A DNA stretch of 33,905 bases from a virus, in the IMG/VR virus record IMGVR_UViG_3300031951_000678, positions 1 through 33,905 of that record. One strand, written 5' to 3'. This document shows, one piece after another, positions 6,242-33,905 of this stretch (its first letter is position 1; every line of letters starts with the position of its first letter). The translations under genes were made by a program, and so were the position numbers. The notes beneath the pieces are model-generated. The model was not told where the DNA came from, did no database searches, and worked only from the letters and a program-made list of their open reading frames with translations.

Positions 6242-6314
6242 TGCCCCATAGCTCAGTTGGCAGAGCATCGCACTGTTAATGCGAGTGTCCCTGGTTCGAG
6301 TCCAGGTGGGGCAG
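6242..6314 (+). tRNA. tRNA-Asn (anticodon GTT)
   Basis: The cloverleaf is complete. Acceptor TGCCCCA (6242-6248) pairs with TGGGGCA (6307-6313), with discriminator G at 6314. Anticodon stem TCGCA/TGCGA encloses loop CTGTTAA with GTT at 6275-6277, and T-stem CCTGG pairs with CCAGG around TTCGAGT. The 3' CCA is not encoded, so host CCA-adding enzyme would be needed. It begins one base after the helicase stop. Confidence 0.95.
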
Positions 6315-6318
6315 CGAT

Positions 6319-6394
6319 GCGGTTGTAGCTCAGTTGGTAGAGCGGCACCTTGCCAAGGTGCAGGTCGCGAGTTCGAGCCTCGTCAACCGCTCCA
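6319..6394 (+). tRNA. tRNA-Gly (anticodon GCC)
   Basis: Acceptor GCGGTTG (6319-6325) pairs with CAACCGC (6384-6390). The discriminator is T and CCA is encoded at 6392-6394. The anticodon arm GCACC/GGTGC encloses TTGCCAA, giving GCC. D and T arms are normal. It is the only one of the three tRNAs with an encoded CCA. Confidence 0.95.
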
Positions 6395-6395
6395 A

Positions 6396-6467
6396 TCTCC
6401 CTTCGTCTAATTGGCAAGACTGCGGATTCTGGTTCCGCCTATCGAGGTTCGAGTCCTTGGGGGAGAG
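6396..6467 (+). tRNA. tRNA-Gln (anticodon CTG)
   Basis: Acceptor TCTCCCT (6396-6402) pairs with GGGGAGA (6460-6466) with one T-G wobble; discriminator G at 6467. Anticodon stem GCGGA/TCCGC encloses TTCTGGT, giving CTG. T-stem CGAGG/CCTTG has one wobble. No CCA is encoded. Confidence 0.93.
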
Positions 6468-6474
6468 CTTTACA

Positions 6475-12326: not shown

Positions 12327-12657
12327 GGGCCAAAAGGAATCTAAGAAGCACGAGGAGCGATTGGCAAAGCTTGTTGGTGGTCAGCGTAGTGCTGCCAGTG
12401 GCGCGTTTTGGAGTCGCAAGGGTGATGTTAGGTCTAAGGACTTGTTAATAGAACACAAGTGGACTGGCAAAACTCAGGTAACTGTCAAGGCAGCAGTACT
12501 AGAAAAGATTGTTAACGAAGCCATCGTTGACAGTCGGACTCCCGTCCTCGGTTTCAGTTTAAACAATAATAATTACGTATTGCTTACTGAAGATGACTTT
12601 CTGGAAATGCGCCAGAATATTCAGGAGCATAATTGTTCAACGACGCAGGGCACGTAG
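12316..12657 (+). CDS. PD-(D/E)XK Holliday-junction-resolvase-like nuclease
   Basis: 113 residues. The core GQRSAASGAFWSRKGDVRS (residues 22-40) then LLIEHKWT supplies the PD-(D/E)XK catalytic set Asp37, Glu46 and Lys48, with the following helix QVTVKAAVLEKIVNEA. The same layout is found in small phage and archaeal-type junction resolvases and related VRR-like endonucleases. The likely role is cutting branched DNA during recombination or packaging. It overlaps the recA-like gene by 11 bases. A second, unrelated resolvase type lies at 14287. Confidence 0.72.
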   Translation: MRSKGQKESKKHEERLAKLVGGQRSAASGAFWSRKGDVRSKDLLIEHKWTGKTQVTVKAAVLEKIVNEAIVDSRTPVLGFSLNNNNYVLLTEDDFLEMRQNIQEHNCSTTQGT

Positions 12658-12950
12658 AGGGCTGGCGACACAACGCTAAGTGTCGTGGTTTGGATACGGA
12701 ACTTTGGTTCCCCCCACGTGACAAAACTAAATATAGAAAAATAGCAGAAGTATCTAAAGGCGTATGCTTTGGTAAAGATGGTTTACCAGAGTGCCCTGTA
12801 CGCAGGGAGTGCCTACTTTACTCTGACCAGATGGATGAACAGCACGGTATCTGGGGTGGCCTTAGCCACCGCGAACGTAACGCACTAAAACGTAAACTAA
12901 AAAAAGATGGAACAACTTTAAAGGAACACCTATTTGATGATAAGGTCTAG
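12633..12950 (+). CDS. whiB: WhiB-family iron-sulfur transcription regulator
   Basis: 105 residues from TTG 12633, with CAGGAG at 12621-12626. Four cysteines, Cys17, Cys45, Cys54 and Cys60, would bind a 4Fe-4S cluster. The GIWGG turn is at 72-76, followed by a Lys/Arg-rich helix (RKLKKDG), both WhiB hallmarks. These proteins bind the primary sigma factor and redirect host transcription. The Cys2-Cys3 spacing is eight residues (CFGKDGLPEC) rather than the two of most bacterial WhiB proteins. The family is essentially confined to Actinobacteria and their phages, so it is the best host marker here. It overlaps the nuclease gene by 25 bases. Confidence 0.92.
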   Translation: MFNDAGHVEGWRHNAKCRGLDTELWFPPRDKTKYRKIAEVSKGVCFGKDGLPECPVRRECLLYSDQMDEQHGIWGGLSHRERNALKRKLKKDGTTLKEHLFDDKV

Positions 12951-16607: not shown

Positions 16608-16681
16608 GCATTTATGGGAATAATCTAATTTAGATTGCGTTACAATAGTGTTGACCGCTCACTCGGAGGGTCACAAAAAGT

Positions 16682-16702
16682 TATATCGTCTAAGGAGATA
16701 TA
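16682..16702 (+). promoter_or_regulatory. Small inverted repeat around the hsp20 ribosome binding site
   Basis: TATATC (16682-16687) and GATATA (16697-16702) flank a loop that carries most of the AAGGAG sequence; the ATG is at 16705. The weak AT stem could melt on warming, as RNA thermometers of small heat-shock genes do. This is suggested by sequence only. A second palindrome, AATCTA/TAGATT, lies at 16622-16636, and TACAAT at 16641 could be a -10 box. Confidence 0.4.
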
Positions 16703-16704
16703 TT

Positions 16705-17226
16705 ATGGCTTCAGGCTACATCAATGGCGGCTATCCAAAAGGTTCACCTCACGAACCATGGGATAAGCCTAAAACAGTTCAGCAATTCCAAACACTAAAA
16801 CCAACCATCCAAGACCCCTTTTCAGCGTTGCAAAATATGCTGTCGCCGTGGACTTTTGGGTTTGACCGTCAACTAGATATGTTTAAAGAGCTAGAAGACG
16901 CACGTATTAAAAGCACTTATCCACCCTACAATATTAAGCATCTGCCCGATGATAAGGCGCAGATTGAGCTTGCTATTGCGGGGTTCAAGAAGGATGATGT
17001 TAAGATTACGTACAAAGAGAACATCATCACCGTTGAGGGCAACCGCGGAGAGGACGACGCTGACTACGCATACAAGGGTATTGCAGCACGTAACTTCGTA
17101 CAGAAGTTTGCCATTGCGGATGACGTTATCGTAGGAGATGCAAAGCTTGAGGATGGTTTCCTAACCATTTCCCTAGAGCGTATCATCCCCGAAGAGAAGA
17201 AAGAAAAAGTAGTTAAAATTAAGTAG
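16705..17226 (+). CDS. Hsp20/alpha-crystallin small heat-shock protein
   Basis: 173 residues from ATG 16705, after TAAGGAGATA; a GTG at 16648 is in frame but poorly placed. The alpha-crystallin domain spans about 72-170 and is close to bacterial IbpA/IbpB: TYPPYNIKHL at 71-80, the GIAARNFVQKF segment at 125-135, and AKLEDGFLTISLER at 146-159 with the usual LxI-type strand. The N terminus (1-70) is Gly/Pro-rich and phage-specific. It is an ATP-independent holdase that keeps unfolding proteins soluble and may help folding during virion production or heat stress. Marine and freshwater phages often carry hsp20. Confidence 0.93.
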   Translation: MASGYINGGYPKGSPHEPWDKPKTVQQFQTLKPTIQDPFSALQNMLSPWTFGFDRQLDMFKELEDARIKSTYPPYNIKHLPDDKAQIELAIAGFKKDDVKITYKENIITVEGNRGEDDADYAYKGIAARNFVQKFAIADDVIVGDAKLEDGFLTISLERIIPEEKKEKVVKIK

Positions 17227-25171: not shown

Positions 25172-27199
25172 ATGCCCCTATCTTTCAGACTAACCGAGGA
25201 CTTCCTAAAGGAGTATCGAAACAAGAAAGTACCTTGGGGTTATAAAGATGCGGGCGGTAATTCGGTTGGTGAAATCACTTTCCTTCGCACCTACTCTAGA
25301 TTAAAAGAGGATGGAACTAAGGAGACTTGGGTAGATGTTTGCCAGCGCGTAATCGAGGGCATGTACTCCTTACAAAAAGACCACTGCAAAACCAGTCGAC
25401 TACCTTGGAACGATACCAGGGCCCAGGCTTCTGCTAAAGAGGCATTTGACCGCCTGTTTAATTTAAAGTGGACCCCACCAGGCCGAGGTCTGTGGGTTAT
25501 GGGTACCCCACTTGTCAATGAGCTCAAGAACTCGGCAGCACTGCAGAACTGTGCTTTCGTATCTACTTCTAGCATGTCTAAATTAGACCCCGCCAAGCCG
25601 TTTGCTTTTCTAATGGAAGCATCAATGTTGGGCGTAGGCGTTGGCTTTGACGACAAGGGCGCAGACAAGGACTTTACAATCTACGACCCTTCCCGCGATG
25701 AATCTAATGTTCAGACTTGGGAAATCCCAGATACCCGCGAAGGATGGGTGGACTCAGTGAGTATGCTCATCAACTCCTACTTAAAACCAGACCAACCTAG
25801 ATGGGTATTTGATTACACACTTATTCGCCCAGCGGGTGCGCCTATCAAAACGTTCGGCGGCACGTCTGCTGGCCCAGAGCCACTAGCCAAACTACACGAC
25901 TATATCTATAACCTATTTGAAGGTCGGGCTACTCAAAAGTTAACTCGCAAGGATGTTGCCGATATCGGTAATTTAATAGGCGTCTGTGTGGTCAGTGGCA
26001 ATGTGCGCCGCTCTGCTGAGCTGCTCATGGGCAGACTAGACGACAAGGACTTCTTAAATTTAAAGAACCCTGCCGTATATCCTGAGCGCAACTCCTACGA
26101 TGCTGCAGCACCTGGTTGGGCCTGGATGTCTAACAACTCTGTTGAGGTATCAGTGGGTTCTAATTTAGACCATATCGTTGAGGGTATTGCTCTCAATGGT
26201 GAGCCTGGAGTTATCTGGATGGATGTTACTCGTAAATACGGACGTCTTATCGACCCACCTAATAATAAAGACCACCGAGCCGCTGGTTACAACCCTTGCG
26301 CTGAGCAATCACTTGAATCCTTCGAGTGCTGTACTTTGGTTGAAACTTACCTCAACCGCCACGACTCTAAAGAAGATTACATACGTACTCTAAAGTTTGC
26401 GTACCTGTATGCAAAAACTGTGACATTACTGCCTACCCACTGGGAAGAAACAAATGCGATTATGCAACGTAATCGTCGTATTGGAACTTCAATGTCTGGT
26501 GTGGCGAACTTCGCAGACCGCGTAGGTATGCCTATCCTTCGTGAGTGGATGGACGCTGGTTACAAGGTTATCCAAGACTACGACCACACATACTCAGAGT
26601 GGCTAGGTATCCGCGAATCTATTAAGACTACTACTGTGAAGCCAAGCGGAACTGTATCTATCCTTGCTGGAGAATCTCCTGGGGTTCACTGGACACCTGG
26701 GGGACAGTACTTCCTTCGTGCAATTCGCTTCTCTAATGAAGACCCAATGCTACCTTTGTTTAAAGCGTCGGGTTATAAAATAGAAAAGGCTTCCGAGTCT
26801 CCAAAAACTACTAGCGTAGTGTTCTTCCCAATCCAGAGTCAGGCTCTCCGCTCAGAGAAAGATGTTTCTATCTTTGAAAAGATGTCGCTTGCCTCTACTG
26901 CCCAACGCCACTGGTCTGATAACTCTGTATCTGTGACCGTCTCCTTCAATGCCGAAACTGAAAAGGACGCCGTAGGAACTGTGCTTCACATGTTTGACGG
27001 ACAACTCAAAACCGTTTCCTTCCTACCAATGGGGAACGCGACTTATCCGCAAATGCCATATACGCAAATAACTAAAGATGAATATGATAAATATACATTT
27101 AAATTGCTTCCTATTGACTTCACAGACGTCTATGCAGGAATGGCAGCGGATGCTATCGGTGAGAAATACTGCTCTAACGACAACTGTTTAATACCGTAA
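25172..27199 (+). CDS. nrdJ: Adenosylcobalamin-dependent (class II) ribonucleoside-triphosphate reductase
   Basis: 675 residues, AAAGGAG at 25159-25165. It matches the monomeric Lactobacillus leichmannii-type enzyme (739 residues): redox Cys127 (QNCAF) and Cys387 (ECC), thiyl Cys376 in NPCAEQS with Asn374 and Glu378, and the C-terminal shuttle pair Cys667/Cys672 (YCSNDNC). Residues TVKPSGTVSILAG near 492-504 form the phosphate-binding turn. It converts NTPs to dNTPs using the B12 coenzyme and needs no oxygen or second subunit. B12 must come from host or environment; no cobalamin riboswitch was seen in the 108-base leader. A strong terminator follows. Confidence 0.95.
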   Translation: MPLSFRLTEDFLKEYRNKKVPWGYKDAGGNSVGEITFLRTYSRLKEDGTKETWVDVCQRVIEGMYSLQKDHCKTSRLPWNDTRAQASAKEAFDRLFNLKWTPPGRGLWVMGTPLVNELKNSAALQNCAFVSTSSMSKLDPAKPFAFLMEASMLGVGVGFDDKGADKDFTIYDPSRDESNVQTWEIPDTREGWVDSVSMLINSYLKPDQPRWVFDYTLIRPAGAPIKTFGGTSAGPEPLAKLHDYIYNLFEGRATQKLTRKDVADIGNLIGVCVVSGNVRRSAELLMGRLDDKDFLNLKNPAVYPERNSYDAAAPGWAWMSNNSVEVSVGSNLDHIVEGIALNGEPGVIWMDVTRKYGRLIDPPNNKDHRAAGYNPCAEQSLESFECCTLVETYLNRHDSKEDYIRTLKFAYLYAKTVTLLPTHWEETNAIMQRNRRIGTSMSGVANFADRVGMPILREWMDAGYKVIQDYDHTYSEWLGIRESIKTTTVKPSGTVSILAGESPGVHWTPGGQYFLRAIRFSNEDPMLPLFKASGYKIEKASESPKTTSVVFFPIQSQALRSEKDVSIFEKMSLASTAQRHWSDNSVSVTVSFNAETEKDAVGTVLHMFDGQLKTVSFLPMGNATYPQMPYTQITKDEYDKYTFKLLPIDFTDVYAGMAADAIGEKYCSNDNCLIP

Positions 27200-27592: not shown

Positions 27593-27898
27593 TTAAATCT
27601 CCTGCTTATAAATTAGAGTGCCCGAAATCTTAATAGGTTTGCCGTTTTCGTCCTCTGACGTAACTTCGAGCTTCACGCTCTTTCGTGGTGTGAGGCTTTG
27701 GACTCTCTCCTTAATCCAACGCTTACCTGCACTAGCGTTAGACCACGCGGTTGTAATGTTATCAATTTCTACGTCGTCATAACTACCTAGACCGTTCTGT
27801 CGGAGTTCAGTAATTGTGTAAGTAACCTTCCACGCGCCACCCTTTTCCATGTTCTTGATAAGGGTCGCCTTGAAGGTGCGCTCTGCTTTTTTAGCCAT
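27593..27898 (-). CDS. Small hypothetical beta-rich protein
   Basis: 101 residues from ATG 27898, preceded by AAAGGAG; a longer start at 27943 lies inside the upstream gene. Alternating charged and hydrophobic residues (TFKATLIKNM, WKVTYTITEL, ISGTLIYKQ) suggest a small beta-barrel such as an OB or SH3 fold. No cysteines. It overlaps the glycosylase-like gene by 8 bases. Function unknown. Confidence 0.68.
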   Translation of the reverse strand: MAKKAERTFKATLIKNMEKGGAWKVTYTITELRQNGLGSYDDVEIDNITTAWSNASAGKRWIKERVQSLTPRKSVKLEVTSEDENGKPIKISGTLIYKQEI

Positions 27899-28319
27899 GT
27901 AAGTTCTCCTTTGTAATAGGCCAATGATAGGGCATAGTTTCATCTACTGTGGGAAAGTGTATCCTATAGTGTTCAGGTAACTTTCGCACTAGGTTTGCTT
28001 GGTGCGATATATGTATCCGCTCGTCGCCTAGCCACGCTGGCATGTCGGGCGCGGGTTTGTGCTGGAAGTGGGTAATAAGGTTATCGTTATACCCACGACG
28101 TATCCACTCTAGGCATATCTCTCTCCCGTAGGACTTGAGTGCGTCGAGGTTATCTCTCCACATGAGAACGGCAGGGTGGTTATGCCATGCGTTGCTCTGT
28201 TGAGTTCCGTCTAACACTCTTACTATTTGATAAGCCTCGACTCTCTGCTTGCCTAGTCGTCGGTAATCTAATACGAGTGCAGTTTCTTTGAAGTCTGCAT
28301 AGGGCAGGAAGGTTTGCAC
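27891..28319 (-). CDS. MSMEG_6728-type pyrimidine dimer DNA glycosylase-like protein
   Basis: 142 residues from GTG 28319, whose start shares one base with the upstream TAG. The sequence MQTFLPYADFKETALVLDYR, RLGKQRVEAYQIVRVL, NHPAVLMWR, then PAWLGDERIHISHQANLVRK and a YHWP ending is the MSMEG_6728/Pyr_excise family typical of actinobacteria and their phages. T4 endonuclease V-like members cut DNA at pyrimidine dimers; actual activity of this subfamily is little studied. A UV-repair role would suit a phage of sunlit water, which is inference. Confidence 0.85.
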   Translation of the reverse strand: MQTFLPYADFKETALVLDYRRLGKQRVEAYQIVRVLDGTQQSNAWHNHPAVLMWRDNLDALKSYGREICLEWIRRGYNDNLITHFQHKPAPDMPAWLGDERIHISHQANLVRKLPEHYRIHFPTVDETMPYHWPITKENLHG

Positions 28320-29796: not shown

Positions 29797-31668
29797 TTAG
29801 TGACGGGCACTCATGGTCGCTTTGACGATATCTTTAGCGACTAGCACCATTTGATTAGGTTCCTCGACCTCGCGGAAGTGCTTAGCACCATGACGATAGC
29901 GCTCGCAACGGTTCTCGTATTCCTCTCGGTCAAACTCGCCCCAACCCTTGAGGCTACCTAGATAGACTACCGAAGTCTGCACTCCGTCCTTAGTAAGGTC
30001 TGCAATAACCTTATTATTTTCCTCGGACATATCCCACTCGCCGTCGGTCACGATAAATAGCATACGCACTCCACGCTTGCTATTCATTAGGTGGCGACGT
30101 GCTTCTAATAGGGCTTTGTAAGGGTTAGTGCCACCGCTACTATTGACGTAGCGATACTCGGTTGGTTGAGCCTTATCAGTTGCAGAGTAGATAAGCCTAC
30201 TATCGTGGTTAAACTTATAGACGGATACTCGACCGTTGATACGCTCGATACCGCGCTTGATTACCCACGCACTTTCCATAGTGCGTTGAATCTGCCACGA
30301 CATACTGCCCGAAGTATCTACTAGGACTATCGCGTCGATATCATTGTTGGAGTTACCTTCACTCCAACGGTCAAACACTTTGTCCATATCGTTGATATCG
30401 GCTCTCATGGCACGTCCTATATTTAAGCGACCCATAGGTTGCTCTAACTCCCACGCAGGGTCGTTATCGATACGGACACGCTCTAGGGCTACGCCGAAGG
30501 CTCGAGCGCTCGCAGATACCTGTGCAGATACCTGTTGGTTGGAGTAAGCGCCCTGCTTAATAGCACTACGACGTTCATTGTTATCGTTGATAGCCTTACG
30601 CACTTCCTTAGTAGTGCGTTGCACTTCGTCGTTCTTGCTAAGGTTATCTAGTCGTTCTTGGATATCTTTGCGTAGCACGTTGTCGTCGGCTTCGTCCTTG
30701 CCCTTGCTACCGAAACTGGTGCTACTGCGGTCGTTATCGGTATTTGTGTCGGCAGGGTCGTCTAGTCGCTCGTTACCTGCGCCGTCGCCTGACTCGTTAT
30801 TGGTAGCCTTATCTTGTTGGGCTTTCTGTTCTTTATCGCCCTTCATGCGACCCTTATCCTGCACTTCGCGGTCGGTATGACCGCCGTTACCGTTAGGGAT
30901 AATAGGCTTACCATTAACTTCGTTGGTGTTCTCATGCCCGATAATATCGGCGAAGGCACGCAGTAAATCTAGCCCTCTGTTGAAGTCGCGTGGATAGACT
31001 AGGGTGCGATACTCATGCACGATAGTCGCAATAGCAACGGCTAAATCTACGCCGAAGTCTTTAATAAACCTATCTGCAATTTCCTGTCGCAATTCTATAT
31101 CTAAATACTTACGACCCGTAAATAGTGGGAAGTAACTACCAAACTCGGCAGAGTCACCCTTGAGTAGATACTCTAGGCATGACGCTTCCATGAACGGTGC
31201 GACCGACGGATACTTTGCGATTAGTAAGCGTTCTATACGAGCGTCCTCTAGGACGTTGAAGGCTTTGCCTAACTGCTCGCGCTTAACTGTCTTACCAAAC
31301 TCGCTACCGCCTCTAGGGGTATAAAGGATATGACCGACCTCATGGTAGTTGAATCCATTGAGGGAGATAATAGTCTTATCATCTATGTCCTCGATAAGGT
31401 GAGCATTGAATACGATATTCTTGCCGTCGTTATAGGCGGTCGTATCCATTTCTTTATTGTCCTCGACCCTGACCTCTACTGGCTCGGCGGTGAGGATACG
31501 GTCGGTGCGACCATAGACCGCACCGACGCTCTGTAACTTATTGATATGTTCCTCTAGGCGCTCGGCTTCGAGTTCCTTGTCGTATTCAATATCGTCACGC
31601 CAATTAGCCTCGCGTGTCTGTGCAATAAGCCTATCGAGTAGGTCGTCGTGTCCGTCGAAGCGACCCAT
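29797..31668 (-). CDS. VWA-domain protein with metallopeptidase-like domain (CobT/DUF2201-like)
   Basis: 623 residues. N-terminal domain: FNYHEVGHILYTP with HExxH at 109-113 and NVLEDARIERLL (138-149; Glu141/Asp142) as third ligand region, the zincin-like layout of CobT and DUF2201 proteins. Residues 265-370 are a Lys/Asp/Asn-rich flexible linker. C-terminal VWA domain: MIDAS DTSGS at 451-455, Thr514 in GGTNP, and TDGEWD at 541-546. Such proteins pair with MoxR-type ATPases, here the gene one base upstream, and act as chaperone or insertion machines. Cobaltochelatase is unlikely because no CobN or corrin genes are here. Confidence 0.85.
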   Translation of the reverse strand: MGRFDGHDDLLDRLIAQTREANWRDDIEYDKELEAERLEEHINKLQSVGAVYGRTDRILTAEPVEVRVEDNKEMDTTAYNDGKNIVFNAHLIEDIDDKTIISLNGFNYHEVGHILYTPRGGSEFGKTVKREQLGKAFNVLEDARIERLLIAKYPSVAPFMEASCLEYLLKGDSAEFGSYFPLFTGRKYLDIELRQEIADRFIKDFGVDLAVAIATIVHEYRTLVYPRDFNRGLDLLRAFADIIGHENTNEVNGKPIIPNGNGGHTDREVQDKGRMKGDKEQKAQQDKATNNESGDGAGNERLDDPADTNTDNDRSSTSFGSKGKDEADDNVLRKDIQERLDNLSKNDEVQRTTKEVRKAINDNNERRSAIKQGAYSNQQVSAQVSASARAFGVALERVRIDNDPAWELEQPMGRLNIGRAMRADINDMDKVFDRWSEGNSNNDIDAIVLVDTSGSMSWQIQRTMESAWVIKRGIERINGRVSVYKFNHDSRLIYSATDKAQPTEYRYVNSSGGTNPYKALLEARRHLMNSKRGVRMLFIVTDGEWDMSEENNKVIADLTKDGVQTSVVYLGSLKGWGEFDREEYENRCERYRHGAKHFREVEEPNQMVLVAKDIVKATMSARH

Positions 31669-31669
31669 G

Positions 31670-33184
31670 TTAGTTATCGCCCTTGAGGATATCGACTAGC
31701 GTGTTAAACGCCTTCTGTGTGTCGTTGAGGTCGGGGGTCGCAAACTCTGTTGCTACTTCCATGCCGTCAATTTGAGCGCCTACTTCTGTATTTAATAGGG
31801 CTTGTTCGGTATTTGAATTGCCGAAGGTAGCCTTATTAGTAAGTGTAGGTAGTCCGAAGTCACTAGCGATATTGTCGCGGTGCGTGGTGAGTAATAGTCT
31901 TACTGCACTACGTTCCTCATCTCCCTCGAAGGAGTTGATATAGCAATAGGTGGCAAACTCCATACCGAGCGCCTTAGCGTTATCTGCGAAGGCTACTAGA
32001 TTACGGGTAGAGATAGGGGTGGATATAGTGCCCTTATCAAACTCTGTGCGGAGTTGGTTCGCCATATCTAATAGGGCTTTGCTACCGAGTAACTTCTGTT
32101 CAATAGCATTATCGTATGGGAATACTAGGCGCTCGGGGAATCGGTCGGCTAGTGCTTGGTTGAGTGGGCGTGTGCCTCGGTAGTCAGGGTTCATGTCTGC
32201 CACGATAAGTAGGTCAGGGTGAGCCTTGATAACCTCGCCACCATTTTCCATGAGTTGAATCTCACGACGGTAATCTAATAGGCTAAAGATAAAGGTGAGA
32301 AAACGCTCAGGTGCGAAGTTAATCTCGTTGAATAGTAGGACTCCACCATTACGGACTATCTCTGTAACTGCGCCGTCCTGCCAACGGAAGTGTCCGTCAG
32401 GGGTTGGAATCCAACGACCGATTAGGTGCGAAGCCTCTAATCCAATATGGCAAGCGACGTTAAAATACCGAAATCCGCGTGCGGAAGCGTAGGCTTGCAC
32501 CATAGCCGTCTTACCCGACCCTGCGTGCCCCTCGATAAGGACGTTCTTATTAGACTTCATAGCGAAGTCCATAATCTCGAAGTCGGTCAGACCGCCTACG
32601 ACCTTGCGGTTGATATAAGCCTTACTAAACGCCTTATCAGGCACGCTCACCATAGCATTGACGAGTGAGTCGCTTATGTTACGAGCCTCGATAGTAATAG
32701 GCTTGTTAGGCACGACGGGCGCGTTCGCGGTCGCCGAAATTGGTAATACACCCTTGTTAATAGGGTTGATAAACACTCCATTGGTGCGACGCTTATCTGC
32801 GATAAACTCGGCAAGGGTGGAGTCGCCTTCCTCGAGTCGCGTAATAAGACTATCTACTGCCTCATTGTGTGCGAGAGTCGCGGAAGCCGTTGGTGCGGTT
32901 TCTAGGGCATAGAGAGCCTTGATACCGACATTGGTAATCTGACCTAATTGAAGCATTACTAGGTCGCGGTCAGATAGGACTACTGCGACGGGTGAGTGTG
33001 AGATAGGGCTAGTAGGTAGGTCGGTCATGGGTTGCCATGCCTGTCCTCGACCCTTAGCGCCATTTGATACGCGGTGATACCCTAAGACCTCGGTATCGCT
33101 TCCAATAAGGAGAGTCTGCGCTTGGGCAGGAATCCCCTCTAGTTCGGTGTTACTCACTACGAGTAACGCAAGGTTGGTAGTCAT
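31670..33184 (-). CDS. MoxR/CobS-like AAA+ ATPase
   Basis: 504 residues. A ~190-residue N-terminal region of unknown fold (with a VAVVLSDRDLVML stretch near 66-78) precedes the AAA+ module: Walker A GHAGSGKT at 219-226, Walker B VLLFNEIN at 282-289 (Asn-Glu instead of Asp-Glu), sensor 1 VADMNPDY at 328-335 and Arg finger region LADRFPERL at 345-353. This is the dynein-related/MoxR/CobS group. It should form hexamers that remodel targets chosen by the adjacent VWA protein. Start ATG 33184 after GAAGGGG overlaps the upstream small gene by 4 bases. Phage cobS annotations usually refer to this family. Confidence 0.87.
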   Translation of the reverse strand: MTTNLALLVVSNTELEGIPAQAQTLLIGSDTEVLGYHRVSNGAKGRGQAWQPMTDLPTSPISHSPVAVVLSDRDLVMLQLGQITNVGIKALYALETAPTASATLAHNEAVDSLITRLEEGDSTLAEFIADKRRTNGVFINPINKGVLPISATANAPVVPNKPITIEARNISDSLVNAMVSVPDKAFSKAYINRKVVGGLTDFEIMDFAMKSNKNVLIEGHAGSGKTAMVQAYASARGFRYFNVACHIGLEASHLIGRWIPTPDGHFRWQDGAVTEIVRNGGVLLFNEINFAPERFLTFIFSLLDYRREIQLMENGGEVIKAHPDLLIVADMNPDYRGTRPLNQALADRFPERLVFPYDNAIEQKLLGSKALLDMANQLRTEFDKGTISTPISTRNLVAFADNAKALGMEFATYCYINSFEGDEERSAVRLLLTTHRDNIASDFGLPTLTNKATFGNSNTEQALLNTEVGAQIDGMEVATEFATPDLNDTQKAFNTLVDILKGDN

Positions 33185-33342
33185 AAGACCCCTTCAATAA
33201 GTGGGTGGCGTTGTTGCCACTCCCCTAAGCGTAGTGACTCTCTATCTATATTAAAGACGACACGCCGATACCCCCTAAAACTCACAGAGTTACTAGCGAG
33301 TAACTTCTCTGCCTCTCTCTCCAATAAGCCTATTATCCGCAT
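33181..33342 (-). CDS. 53-residue hypothetical protein upstream of the ATPase
   Basis: From ATG 33342 to TGA at 33181-33183, overlapping the ATPase start as ATGA. Residues are Arg/Glu/Leu-rich (MRIIGLLEREAEKLLASN; RRVVFNIDRESLRLGEWQ). Ribosome site GTGGGG is modest. It contains the perfect inverted repeat AGTTACT/AGTAACT at 33288-33305. Not recognised; possible small regulator of the module. The overlap is the main support. Confidence 0.55.
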   Translation of the reverse strand: MRIIGLLEREAEKLLASNSVSFRGYRRVVFNIDRESLRLGEWQQRHPLIEGVL

Positions 33343-33505
33343 ACCCCACGCAGATAGGGCTATTAAATCTGGCTGTGAGCGCGGTCACACTCTCGGCTAG
33401 GGTGGCAGTAGCCGAAACGGCAAATCTCTCAGCCTATTCTCTCTCTGCCTCTCTCTCAAGCCGACACGCCGTATTCACAGGAAACTCTTTTGTGATATGC
33501 GCCAC
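33343..33505. other. Gene-free leader region with purine-rich repeat
   Basis: No convincing gene on either strand. It carries TCTCTGCCTCTCTCTC at 33442-33457, an exact 16-base copy of 33306-33321 in the small gene next door, and CGACACGCCG at 33462-33471 repeated from 33258-33267. A short GTG frame on the - strand (about 30 codons) is not supported. Probably the untranslated leader of the ATPase operon. Confidence 0.5.
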
Positions 33506-33648
33506 AGTTTGTGTTGGGCTATATGGCTAAAGCCAATAGCCCAATGGGCAGAATGACCTTTTTTATATTAAAAAAGGTCATAAAGGGTGGGTTAGCGAAT
33601 AATGTATAATTGAATACATTATGAGCGATGGGTGGGCCAACACAAACT
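33506..33648. other. Nested multi-hairpin element (cloverleaf-like)
   Basis: An outer perfect 12-bp inverted repeat, AGTTTGTGTTGG (33506-33517) and CCAACACAAACT (33637-33648), encloses three stem-loops. Arm 1 is GGGCTAT and TGGCT paired with AGCCA and ATAGCCC (33516-33542, one bulged A). Arm 2 is ATGACCTTTTTTA/TAAAAAAGGTCAT (33553-33581, 3-base loop). Arm 3 is ATAATGTAT/ATACATTAT (33599-33622). The interior is AT-rich. It could be a replication origin, a structured RNA or a regulatory site. A possible - strand promoter overlaps it (CATAAT at 33623-33618 and TTGTGT at 33645-33640, 16-base spacer). Confidence 0.75.
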
Positions 33649-33674
33649 CTGCTGCCGCCGCCAGGTAGAATGAG

Positions 33675-33708
33675 ATAAGGCTAGCAAGCGGGTGCTTGCT
33701 AGCCTTAT
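33675..33708. terminator. Perfect 15-bp stem-loop, probable bidirectional terminator
   Basis: ATAAGGCTAGCAAGC (33675-33689), loop GGGT, GCTTGCTAGCCTTAT (33694-33708), then TTT on the + strand. It lies 27 bases beyond the stop of the partial - strand gene, separating it from the hairpin element and the ATPase operon. Confidence 0.75.
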
Positions 33709-33735
33709 TTGGTGGATTAGTTGAAGGGGGTAACC

Positions 33736-33905
33736 CTAGCAGATACTGAATCCACCACTTTCTGCTAGGAACTCTGCAAACTCACGGACGTTCTCTTGGG
33801 AGAATGGATAGTTTGTAGCCCAATTAGGCTTCCACCCCATACCATCACACCCATTACACCACCCCGTTTCCCTTCCTAACACTATAACCTTATCATCTGA
33901 TAGGG
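33736..33905 (-). CDS. Partial CDS, C-terminal 55 residues, CxxC protein
   Basis: An open frame enters from the right edge and ends with TAG at 33736-33738. It includes KVIVLGRETGW, then CNGC near the middle of the visible part, WKPNWATNYPFSQENVREF and a GGFSIC end. One CxxC pair is seen; a partner pair may lie further upstream. Function not recognised. The coherent, aromatic-rich protein sequence and the terminator-like stem after it support a real gene. Confidence 0.6.
   Translation of the reverse strand, partial: LSDDKVIVLGRETGWCNGCDGMGWKPNWATNYPFSQENVREFAEFLAESGGFSIC

Follow-up and report, generated by a model that had tools for sequence, protein, structure and literature searches.

Introduction

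PeSL (promoter early stem-loop) elements are recognised by an early promoter joined with a stem-loop in repeated intergenic units, and in the human c-MYC CT element a CCCACCCTCCCC-type strand upstream of the promoter is proposed to form non-B DNA. The early promoters of the N4 virion RNA polymerase (vRNAP) are described as DNA hairpins extruded by supercoiling, whose non-conserved stem bases vary freely (PMC4496689). In cluster K mycobacteriophages, the ESAS sequences are outlined as imperfect repeats of 17 bp, in most cases with 4-13 bp of spacer, located beside start-associated repeats (PMC3203893). The consensus site of the regulator GlxR is given as TGTGANNTANNTCACA (PMC4254451). For plasmids, PMC5716088 describes G-quadruplex formation as not driven by negative supercoiling alone.

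This study concerns a viral record of 33,905 bases (the window), which is shorter than most of its long relatives and therefore probably a fragment. It carries a nested set of hairpins upstream of an operon for an ATPase and a VWA protein, for which the original prediction offered three roles: a replication origin, a structured noncoding RNA or a control site for the operon. The hairpins belong to a family of elements that all start with one box, TGTTTGTGTTGR. We know of no description of this box family, and none was recognised by title or abstract in a mostly open-access literature with few subscription papers.

Results

A folded element upstream of the ATPase-VWA operon

The element is placed between a 15-bp hairpin and the minus-strand ATPase-VWA operon. 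The parts of the locus are as follows.

29797-31668, minus strand: VWA (CoxE-type) protein, gene 2 of the operon (Pfam VWA_CoxE, 2.2e-7)
31670-33184, minus strand: AAA_5/MoxR-type ATPase, gene 1 of the operon (Pfam AAA_5, 3.6e-23)
33506-33517, unstranded: left outer arm, the reverse complement of the family box, invariant over 9 counted pairs in 8 homologues
33516-33542, unstranded: arm 1, a hairpin with one bulged A (folding; compensated changes in the alignment)
33553-33581, unstranded: arm 2, a perfect hairpin of 13 bp (folding; compensated changes in the alignment)
33585-33591, minus strand: second CCCACCC word (GGGTGGG on the plus strand), invariant in 8 homologues
33599-33622, unstranded: arm 3, a perfect hairpin of 9 bp (folding; compensated changes in the alignment)
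33630-33636, minus strand: first CCCACCC word (GGGTGGG on the plus strand), adjoining the box and invariant in 8 homologues
33637-33648, minus strand: right outer arm, which is the family box GTTTGTGTTGG and the 5' end of the element on the operon strand (from the sequence)
33675-33708, unstranded: 15-bp hairpin upstream of the element and behind the upstream gene, terminator-like in relatives (from the sequence)

The outer inverted repeat (AGTTTGTGTTGG at 33506-33517 and CCAACACAAACT at 33637-33648) is perfect over 12 bp, its arms are 119 bases apart, and it encloses three hairpins exactly where they had been predicted. Arm 1 (33516-33542) comprises 7+4 pairs, a count that rises if the bases common to the outer stem are included; the bases for which arm 1 and the outer stem would compete in the suggested switch, TTG..CAA, are present in 8 of 8 aligned homologues. 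That nearly every base lies in a helix was an overstatement, as 41 bases between the arms (33543-33552, 33582-33598 and 33623-33636) are outside the named helices. Both conserved GGGTGGG words, CCCACCC in the operon sense, fall within these 41 bases. Compared with shuffled controls, the folding energy of the element has z-scores of -8.38 (plus strand) and -9.24 (minus strand) as RNA and of -8.17 and -7.33, respectively, as DNA, with 0 of 200 shuffles as good in any of the four comparisons. The folded structure of the element is real.

Two statements about the flanks held in part. The region is gene-free to the extent that no listed ORF longer than 53 aa lies in 33185-33905, but a 51-aa plus-strand frame (33375-33530) enters the element. 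The 15-bp hairpin, described as a strong terminator, is strong as a hairpin, but its T-tract on the operon strand is weak and the terminator scan made no call there. Inside the element no intrinsic terminator (hairpin plus T-run) was called.

Elsewhere in the window are three neighbouring tRNA genes for Asn, Gly and Gln (6242-6468, plus strand), an HSP20-family protein (16648-17226, plus strand), a B12-dependent (class II) ribonucleotide reductase (25172-27199, plus strand) and a pyrimidine dimer DNA glycosylase (27891-28319, minus strand). In other records the ATPase-VWA pair carries an annotation of porphyrin or cobalamin biosynthesis. A WhiB-family transcription factor is encoded at 12633-12950 (plus strand; Pfam, 3.5e-16), and this family is typical of actinobacteria and their phages. 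The presence of the WhiB-family gene and the actinophage relatives of the ATPase suggest that the host is an actinobacterium; the WhiB-family protein is also a possible regulator of the predicted promoters described below.

Homologues and compensated base changes

With the ATPase as query, 20 loci were recovered from IMG/VR, several of which carry upstream of the ATPase the order GTTTGTGTTGG, CCCACCC, hairpin, CCCACCC, hairpin, hairpin and CCAACACAAAC. In an alignment of 8 homologues, two-sided changes are found in 11 of 41 pairs (23 cells), a level reached by 0 of 500 shuffles and by no slid version of the structure; related phages thus bear out the predicted fold by compensatory change. In the same alignment 91.3% of cells are paired for the true structure versus 39-47% when it is slid by 1-3 columns. 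The outer repeat is invariant in the 8 homologues and therefore contributes no covariation in that set. In a sister group (L015, L018, L020 and L023) the box reads TTTGGGTTG and the partner arm has changed along with it. The fold is conserved with compensated changes, as though it mattered in itself.

Loci L008 and L009 are 99.9% identical over 9.2 kb, and L008 has a blunt absence of 114 nt that starts exactly at the box and corresponds to about positions 3520-3633 of L009. This may reflect a real deletion of an element dispensable in L008, or a loss during assembly at the hairpin.

A dispersed family of boxed elements

The family box is intergenic and mostly points toward the next gene. Simpler members are found ahead of many other small genes in these uncultured phages. 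A scan for the box followed by a C-rich word, GTTTGTGTTGRCCCACCC, returned 64 stretches with up to 4 copies per contig, on 54 viral contigs by a hand count of the 64 scan rows, in which 10 contigs appear twice. The family members have three layouts. Class A is that of the window, with three arms inside inverted ends; in class B the box is followed by a long near-perfect palindrome closed by the reverse-complement box; in class C it is followed by a C-rich word, either in a small hairpin loop or ahead of a CCC/GGG hairpin. Because of overlap between loci and of relatedness among the phages, the family-wide counts below are of sequences and not of independent events.

Most C-rich elements (123/131) are outside ORFs of at least 110 aa. 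A next ORF was called for 94, of which 86 point at it; the other 37 of the 131 have no such call. Under stricter gene calls, which left 40 elements that could not be placed, 86 of 90 point at the next gene: 85 are between two genes of the same direction, 4 are against both neighbours, 1 is between divergent genes and none is between convergent genes. A strong hairpin is found at most 80 nt upstream of the box in 122 of 153 cases (median distance 19.5 nt), and for 90 of those 122 the end of the hairpin is less than 30 nt from the box. In ten contigs of 90-98 kb, which were hand-chosen and leave out others of similar length such as the 93-kb contig of L045, copies of the bare 9-nt box cluster in a single region. 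In contigs with the ATPase this region surrounds the gene. Isolated copies occur at other places, some of them intragenic.

In genome contigs of 84,980 species the box pattern had 2 matches, in apparently bacterial contexts, which were taken as chance. DNA similarity in named phages was confined to the ATPase gene of 11 Gordonia phage records, and the element itself gave E values of 0.7 or worse among the matches listed. The Gordonia phages Gray and FlyingTortilla (L100 and L101) have a different word, CATGTTTCACCAA, located after hairpins and before start codons, with one copy in L100 and two in L101; maybe it is an analogous element in these phages. Gray also carries one GTTTGTGTTG inside a 1.1-kb gap.

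The three-arm type accompanies the ATPase gene

C-rich elements closed by an inverted end stand before the ATPase in 20 of 25 cases, compared with 2 of 106 for those without the inverted end. The five unassigned cases are L031, where the next gene is the ATPase by other searches, L063, which has the ATPase in its locus, L032 and L080, which are too close to the locus end, and L028:4962, which is an exception. A covariance model of class A matched with E <= 0.001 in 6 of the 10 long contigs; the ATPase gene is encoded in the same 6 and was not found in the other 4, which do carry the box. In G004, which is among the 6, the model matches a second time about 1.2 kb upstream. Since the identity of the ATPase to that of the window goes down to about 46% among element-bearing contigs, the association looks old.

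The box is 371-691 nt from the estimated ATPase start in the 22 cases measured. There is no exact box within 900 nt in 14 of the 54 loci that have the ATPase and 700 nt before it. These are L008, the sister group (L015, L018, L019, L020 and L023), the cultured or distant L065, L101, L109, L110 and L111, and L031, L092 and L063, in which the start was misplaced owing to a partial protein match. In regions of 18-41 kb around the ATPase of five cultured relatives (Gordonia phages Gray, FlyingTortilla and GMA6, Brevibacterium phage Cantare and Actinomycetia phage DSL-LC01), the class A model had no match at E up to 1, and no box with the C-rich word was found.

A promoter-like pattern and regulator-like sites follow the element

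A consensus promoter scan of 33100-33905 found none, and a first scan of the whole set had no enrichment (mean best score of 7.36 versus 7.26 for shuffled sequence). Promoter-like and regulator-like signals emerged only once the elements were aligned on their 3' ends. In the window they are as follows.

33374-33389, unstranded: second CRP/GlxR-like palindrome, TGTGACCGCGCTCACA, an exact TGTGA-N6-TCACA
33431-33436, minus strand: predicted -10 hexamer TAGGCT, with a 17-nt spacer (pattern search on the alignment of element 3' ends)
33454-33459, minus strand: predicted -35 hexamer TTGAGA; hexamers and spacing are identical in L004 and L005
33491-33506, unstranded: CRP/GlxR-like palindrome, TGTGGCGCATATCACA, directly adjoining the element and differing from TGTGA-N6-TCACA at one position

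The sigma-70-type pattern, which was devised after viewing the sequences and required TTG and at least 5 of 6 matches at -35 and TA at -10, follows 21 of 24 class A elements, compared with a mononucleotide-shuffle mean of 1.6 and with 5 on the reverse strand. Elements with less than 150 nt behind them were excluded and identical flanks were counted once. In 18 of these 21 cases the predicted -35 comes 24-58 nt behind the element. Neither class B (5/34, the elements kept on restriction to gene-oriented neighbours; shuffles 3.1, reverse strand 4) nor class C (15/102; shuffles 8.3, reverse strand 17) has an enrichment. If the promoter call is right, the element is upstream of the transcription start. 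As to the polymerase, sigma region 2 was found in 1 of the 10 long contigs; a T7-type RNA polymerase was found in none of the 10, where the control also matched nowhere, so that this result is no evidence.

Within 40 nt of the 55 elements with inverted ends, the DnaA-box form TGTGGATAA is found in 24, the palindrome TGTGR-N6-YCACA in 11 and neither in 20; for class A, a CRP-like site is right behind the element in 10 of 22 and a DnaA-like site in 5 of 22. For the 106 C-rich elements without the inverted end, the interval from +40 to +260 has the palindrome in 42 and the DnaA form in 6. The palindrome, whose columns partly resemble the GlxR consensus, is 50-75 nt after the box start in 37 of 74 sites. 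From its centre to the predicted -10 the distance is 52 (five cases), 62 (three), 43, 56 or 116 (n=11); 52 and 62 differ by one helical turn, and the three at 62 are one close group. The window has just two instances of the CRP-like form, at 33491-33506 and 33374-33389. Among the 256 half-site words of the same shape, with a mean of 0.17 per window, the CRP-like form alone hits 33185-33505; over the whole window it is not beyond chance, as at least five other words of that shape also occur twice.

Locus L052 has several TGTGA-N6-TCACA palindromes in a row, about 30-120 nt behind its boxes. The words GGCGTGTCG, GGCTACTGCC and AATCGTTAT, along with GA-rich runs, recur in 33185-33505 of the window and in the matching regions of relatives, and in elements of class A, the window type, the GA-rich run is the spacer of the predicted promoter.

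Wobble pairs in the arms and in neighbouring hairpins

Wobble at the level seen in the hairpins upstream of the boxes, 80 G.T and 3 A.C of 974 pairs on the gene strand, is expected of RNA hairpins. The class A arms have 2 G.T and 2 A.C of 316 pairs (Fisher 3e-8 versus the upstream hairpins). Similarly, the class B stems beyond the box have 1 G.T and 0 A.C of 276 pairs, versus 51 and 3 of 762 upstream under the same scoring (Fisher 2.5e-6). When the class B outer stems were scored more loosely, 427 pairs included 20 G.T, 10 A.C and 28 other mismatches, higher counts because the extension overran the stems. On both strands the stems are close to perfect. The class C' hairpins (171 pairs, no wobble and 2 other mismatches) were pre-selected as near-perfect short stems and are not the main argument. 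As the arms, unlike the upstream hairpins, are nearly without G.T wobble, they can be argued to fold as DNA, and the lack of wobble together with the downstream promoter pattern may be read as selection on folded DNA.

Other observations bear on RNA. Loops of TTCG or TACG, which favour RNA, are present in some of the class C hairpins, and the C-rich word mostly occupies the strand reading toward the gene, which RNA would account for too. In Rfam only the three tRNAs of the window reach the gathering cut-off and the element has no match; under relaxed settings the best match in the element region scored 26.6 bits versus a cut-off of 70.

Discussion

We lean, though not strongly, toward the element being a DNA module that regulates the ATPase-VWA operon from upstream, a specialised family member in one tailed-phage group. 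Of the roles originally offered, that of a control site for the operon fared best and is well supported, as class A goes with the ATPase gene and is directly upstream of a promoter-like pattern. Because this pattern follows the element, often with a CRP/GlxR- or DnaA-like site between them, the element is most likely upstream regulatory DNA and not a transcript. How it folds we infer. Outside the mRNA, where the element would be located, negative supercoiling, for example behind polymerases leaving the promoter, would fold the arms out as DNA hairpins. The extruded arms would leave the box and the C-rich and G-rich words unpaired or open to binding, a factor would read the box, and operon firing would be set by the folded state jointly with a CRP-type regulator located between the element and the promoter. 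The plasmid result in PMC5716088 speaks against this mechanism. The genes served are presumably early genes because of their small size and place. More broadly, multi-hairpin DNA driven by torsion, with its G-rich and C-rich words split, may conceivably form tension-sensitive switches upstream of early-gene promoters, most elaborate at the ATPase operon, a proposal we hold only tentatively.

The structured noncoding RNA that was also proposed is not favoured, though a transcribed element deserves some weight: we think it possible, if rather unlikely, that the element is a structured 5' leader or an antitermination signal with the box as its 5' part, for which put and nut sites are precedents. 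The strong RNA fold on both strands, the match of element orientation to the gene and the UNCG-type loops of some class C members would all suit such a leader. However, the promoter-like pattern is downstream of the class A element in 21 of 24 cases, there is scant promoter room before the box (an upstream hairpin is less than 30 nt away in 90/122), the arms are almost without wobble and without strand bias, and Rfam has no match. It is more doubtful still that the element is a feature of the upstream gene's 3' end, an extended terminator or mRNA end, and of all the readings we consider this the least probable. A hairpin with at least 4 T in 8 nt does precede the box shortly in 69 of 122 cases, but the element type tracks the downstream ATPase, the box is at least 20 nt from the hairpin in 61 of 122 and elements occur at 1 divergent and 0 convergent gene pairs.

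It is improbable that host DnaA opens the element as a replication origin or a site of single-strand initiation, even with the DnaA-box-like TGTGGATAA within 40 nt after 24 of 55 inverted-end elements and with 9 of 10 exact DnaA boxes of contig G002 inside the element region. The window has no exact DnaA box, TTATCCACA or TTGTCCACA, on either strand, exact boxes are absent from 2 of the 10 long contigs, and several family members per genome are ahead of different genes. In contig G001 no sharp skew turn is seen around the same element in 5-kb steps; the strand-skew profile of the window stops at 33499, short of the element. We give equally little credence to a mobile or recombination cassette of the kind proposed for the PeSL elements of T4-type phages. 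The conserved ends, the repeats within one genome region and the precise 114-nt absence in L008 versus L009 are what a cassette might leave, but in 35 chosen loci homology ends fall within 30 nt of a box in 4.6% of 345 cases, compared with 5.2% for random points, and matching flanks come with the element in 313 comparisons and without it in 2, both involving L008.

When genomes conserve secondary structure, RNA is the usual interpretation, and here dozens of related phages have apparent selection on folded DNA. If the regulatory DNA reading is true, these phages provide a natural, well-replicated system for the control of promoters by supercoiling and DNA hairpins, and they caution that covariation by itself does not identify a noncoding RNA. 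Comparing wobble in the element arms with that in adjacent terminator-like hairpins is an inexpensive test that can be reused.

Comparison with known systems

The proposed element resembles the N4 vRNAP hairpin promoters in that DNA hairpins would be extruded by supercoiling. Unlike N4, no giant RNA polymerase is found in G001, the only contig read through (as five pieces), in which the longest ORF has 1221 aa, and a sigma-70-type pattern is present instead. The placement of a TGTGA-N6-TCACA palindrome upstream of a sigma-70-type pattern is like that of actinobacterial promoters activated by CRP or GlxR. Palindromes at 52 or 62 from the predicted -10 in 8 of 11 cases are consistent with that layout. 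We know of no counterpart at such promoters of a folded element further upstream. With the c-MYC CT element the likeness is one of how it would work, with no homology to the phage element.

The PeSL units of T4-type phages are described as repeated intergenic units of hairpin and promoter in a region of small genes (PMC4503421), which the present family may resemble. Here a promoter-like pattern follows 21 of 24 class A elements, without enrichment for classes B and C. Unlike PeSL, there are several hairpins, the inverted ends are conserved, the element is upstream of the promoter-like pattern and there is no sign of shuffling at the elements (4.6% of 345 homology ends versus 5.2% at random). 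As with the ESAS and start-associated sequences (SAS) of cluster K mycobacteriophages, inverted repeats stand before a subset of genes in an actinophage, with function unproven. In contrast to ESAS, the box of the present family is 371-691 nt before the estimated ATPase start (22 cases), and inner arms are located within the element.
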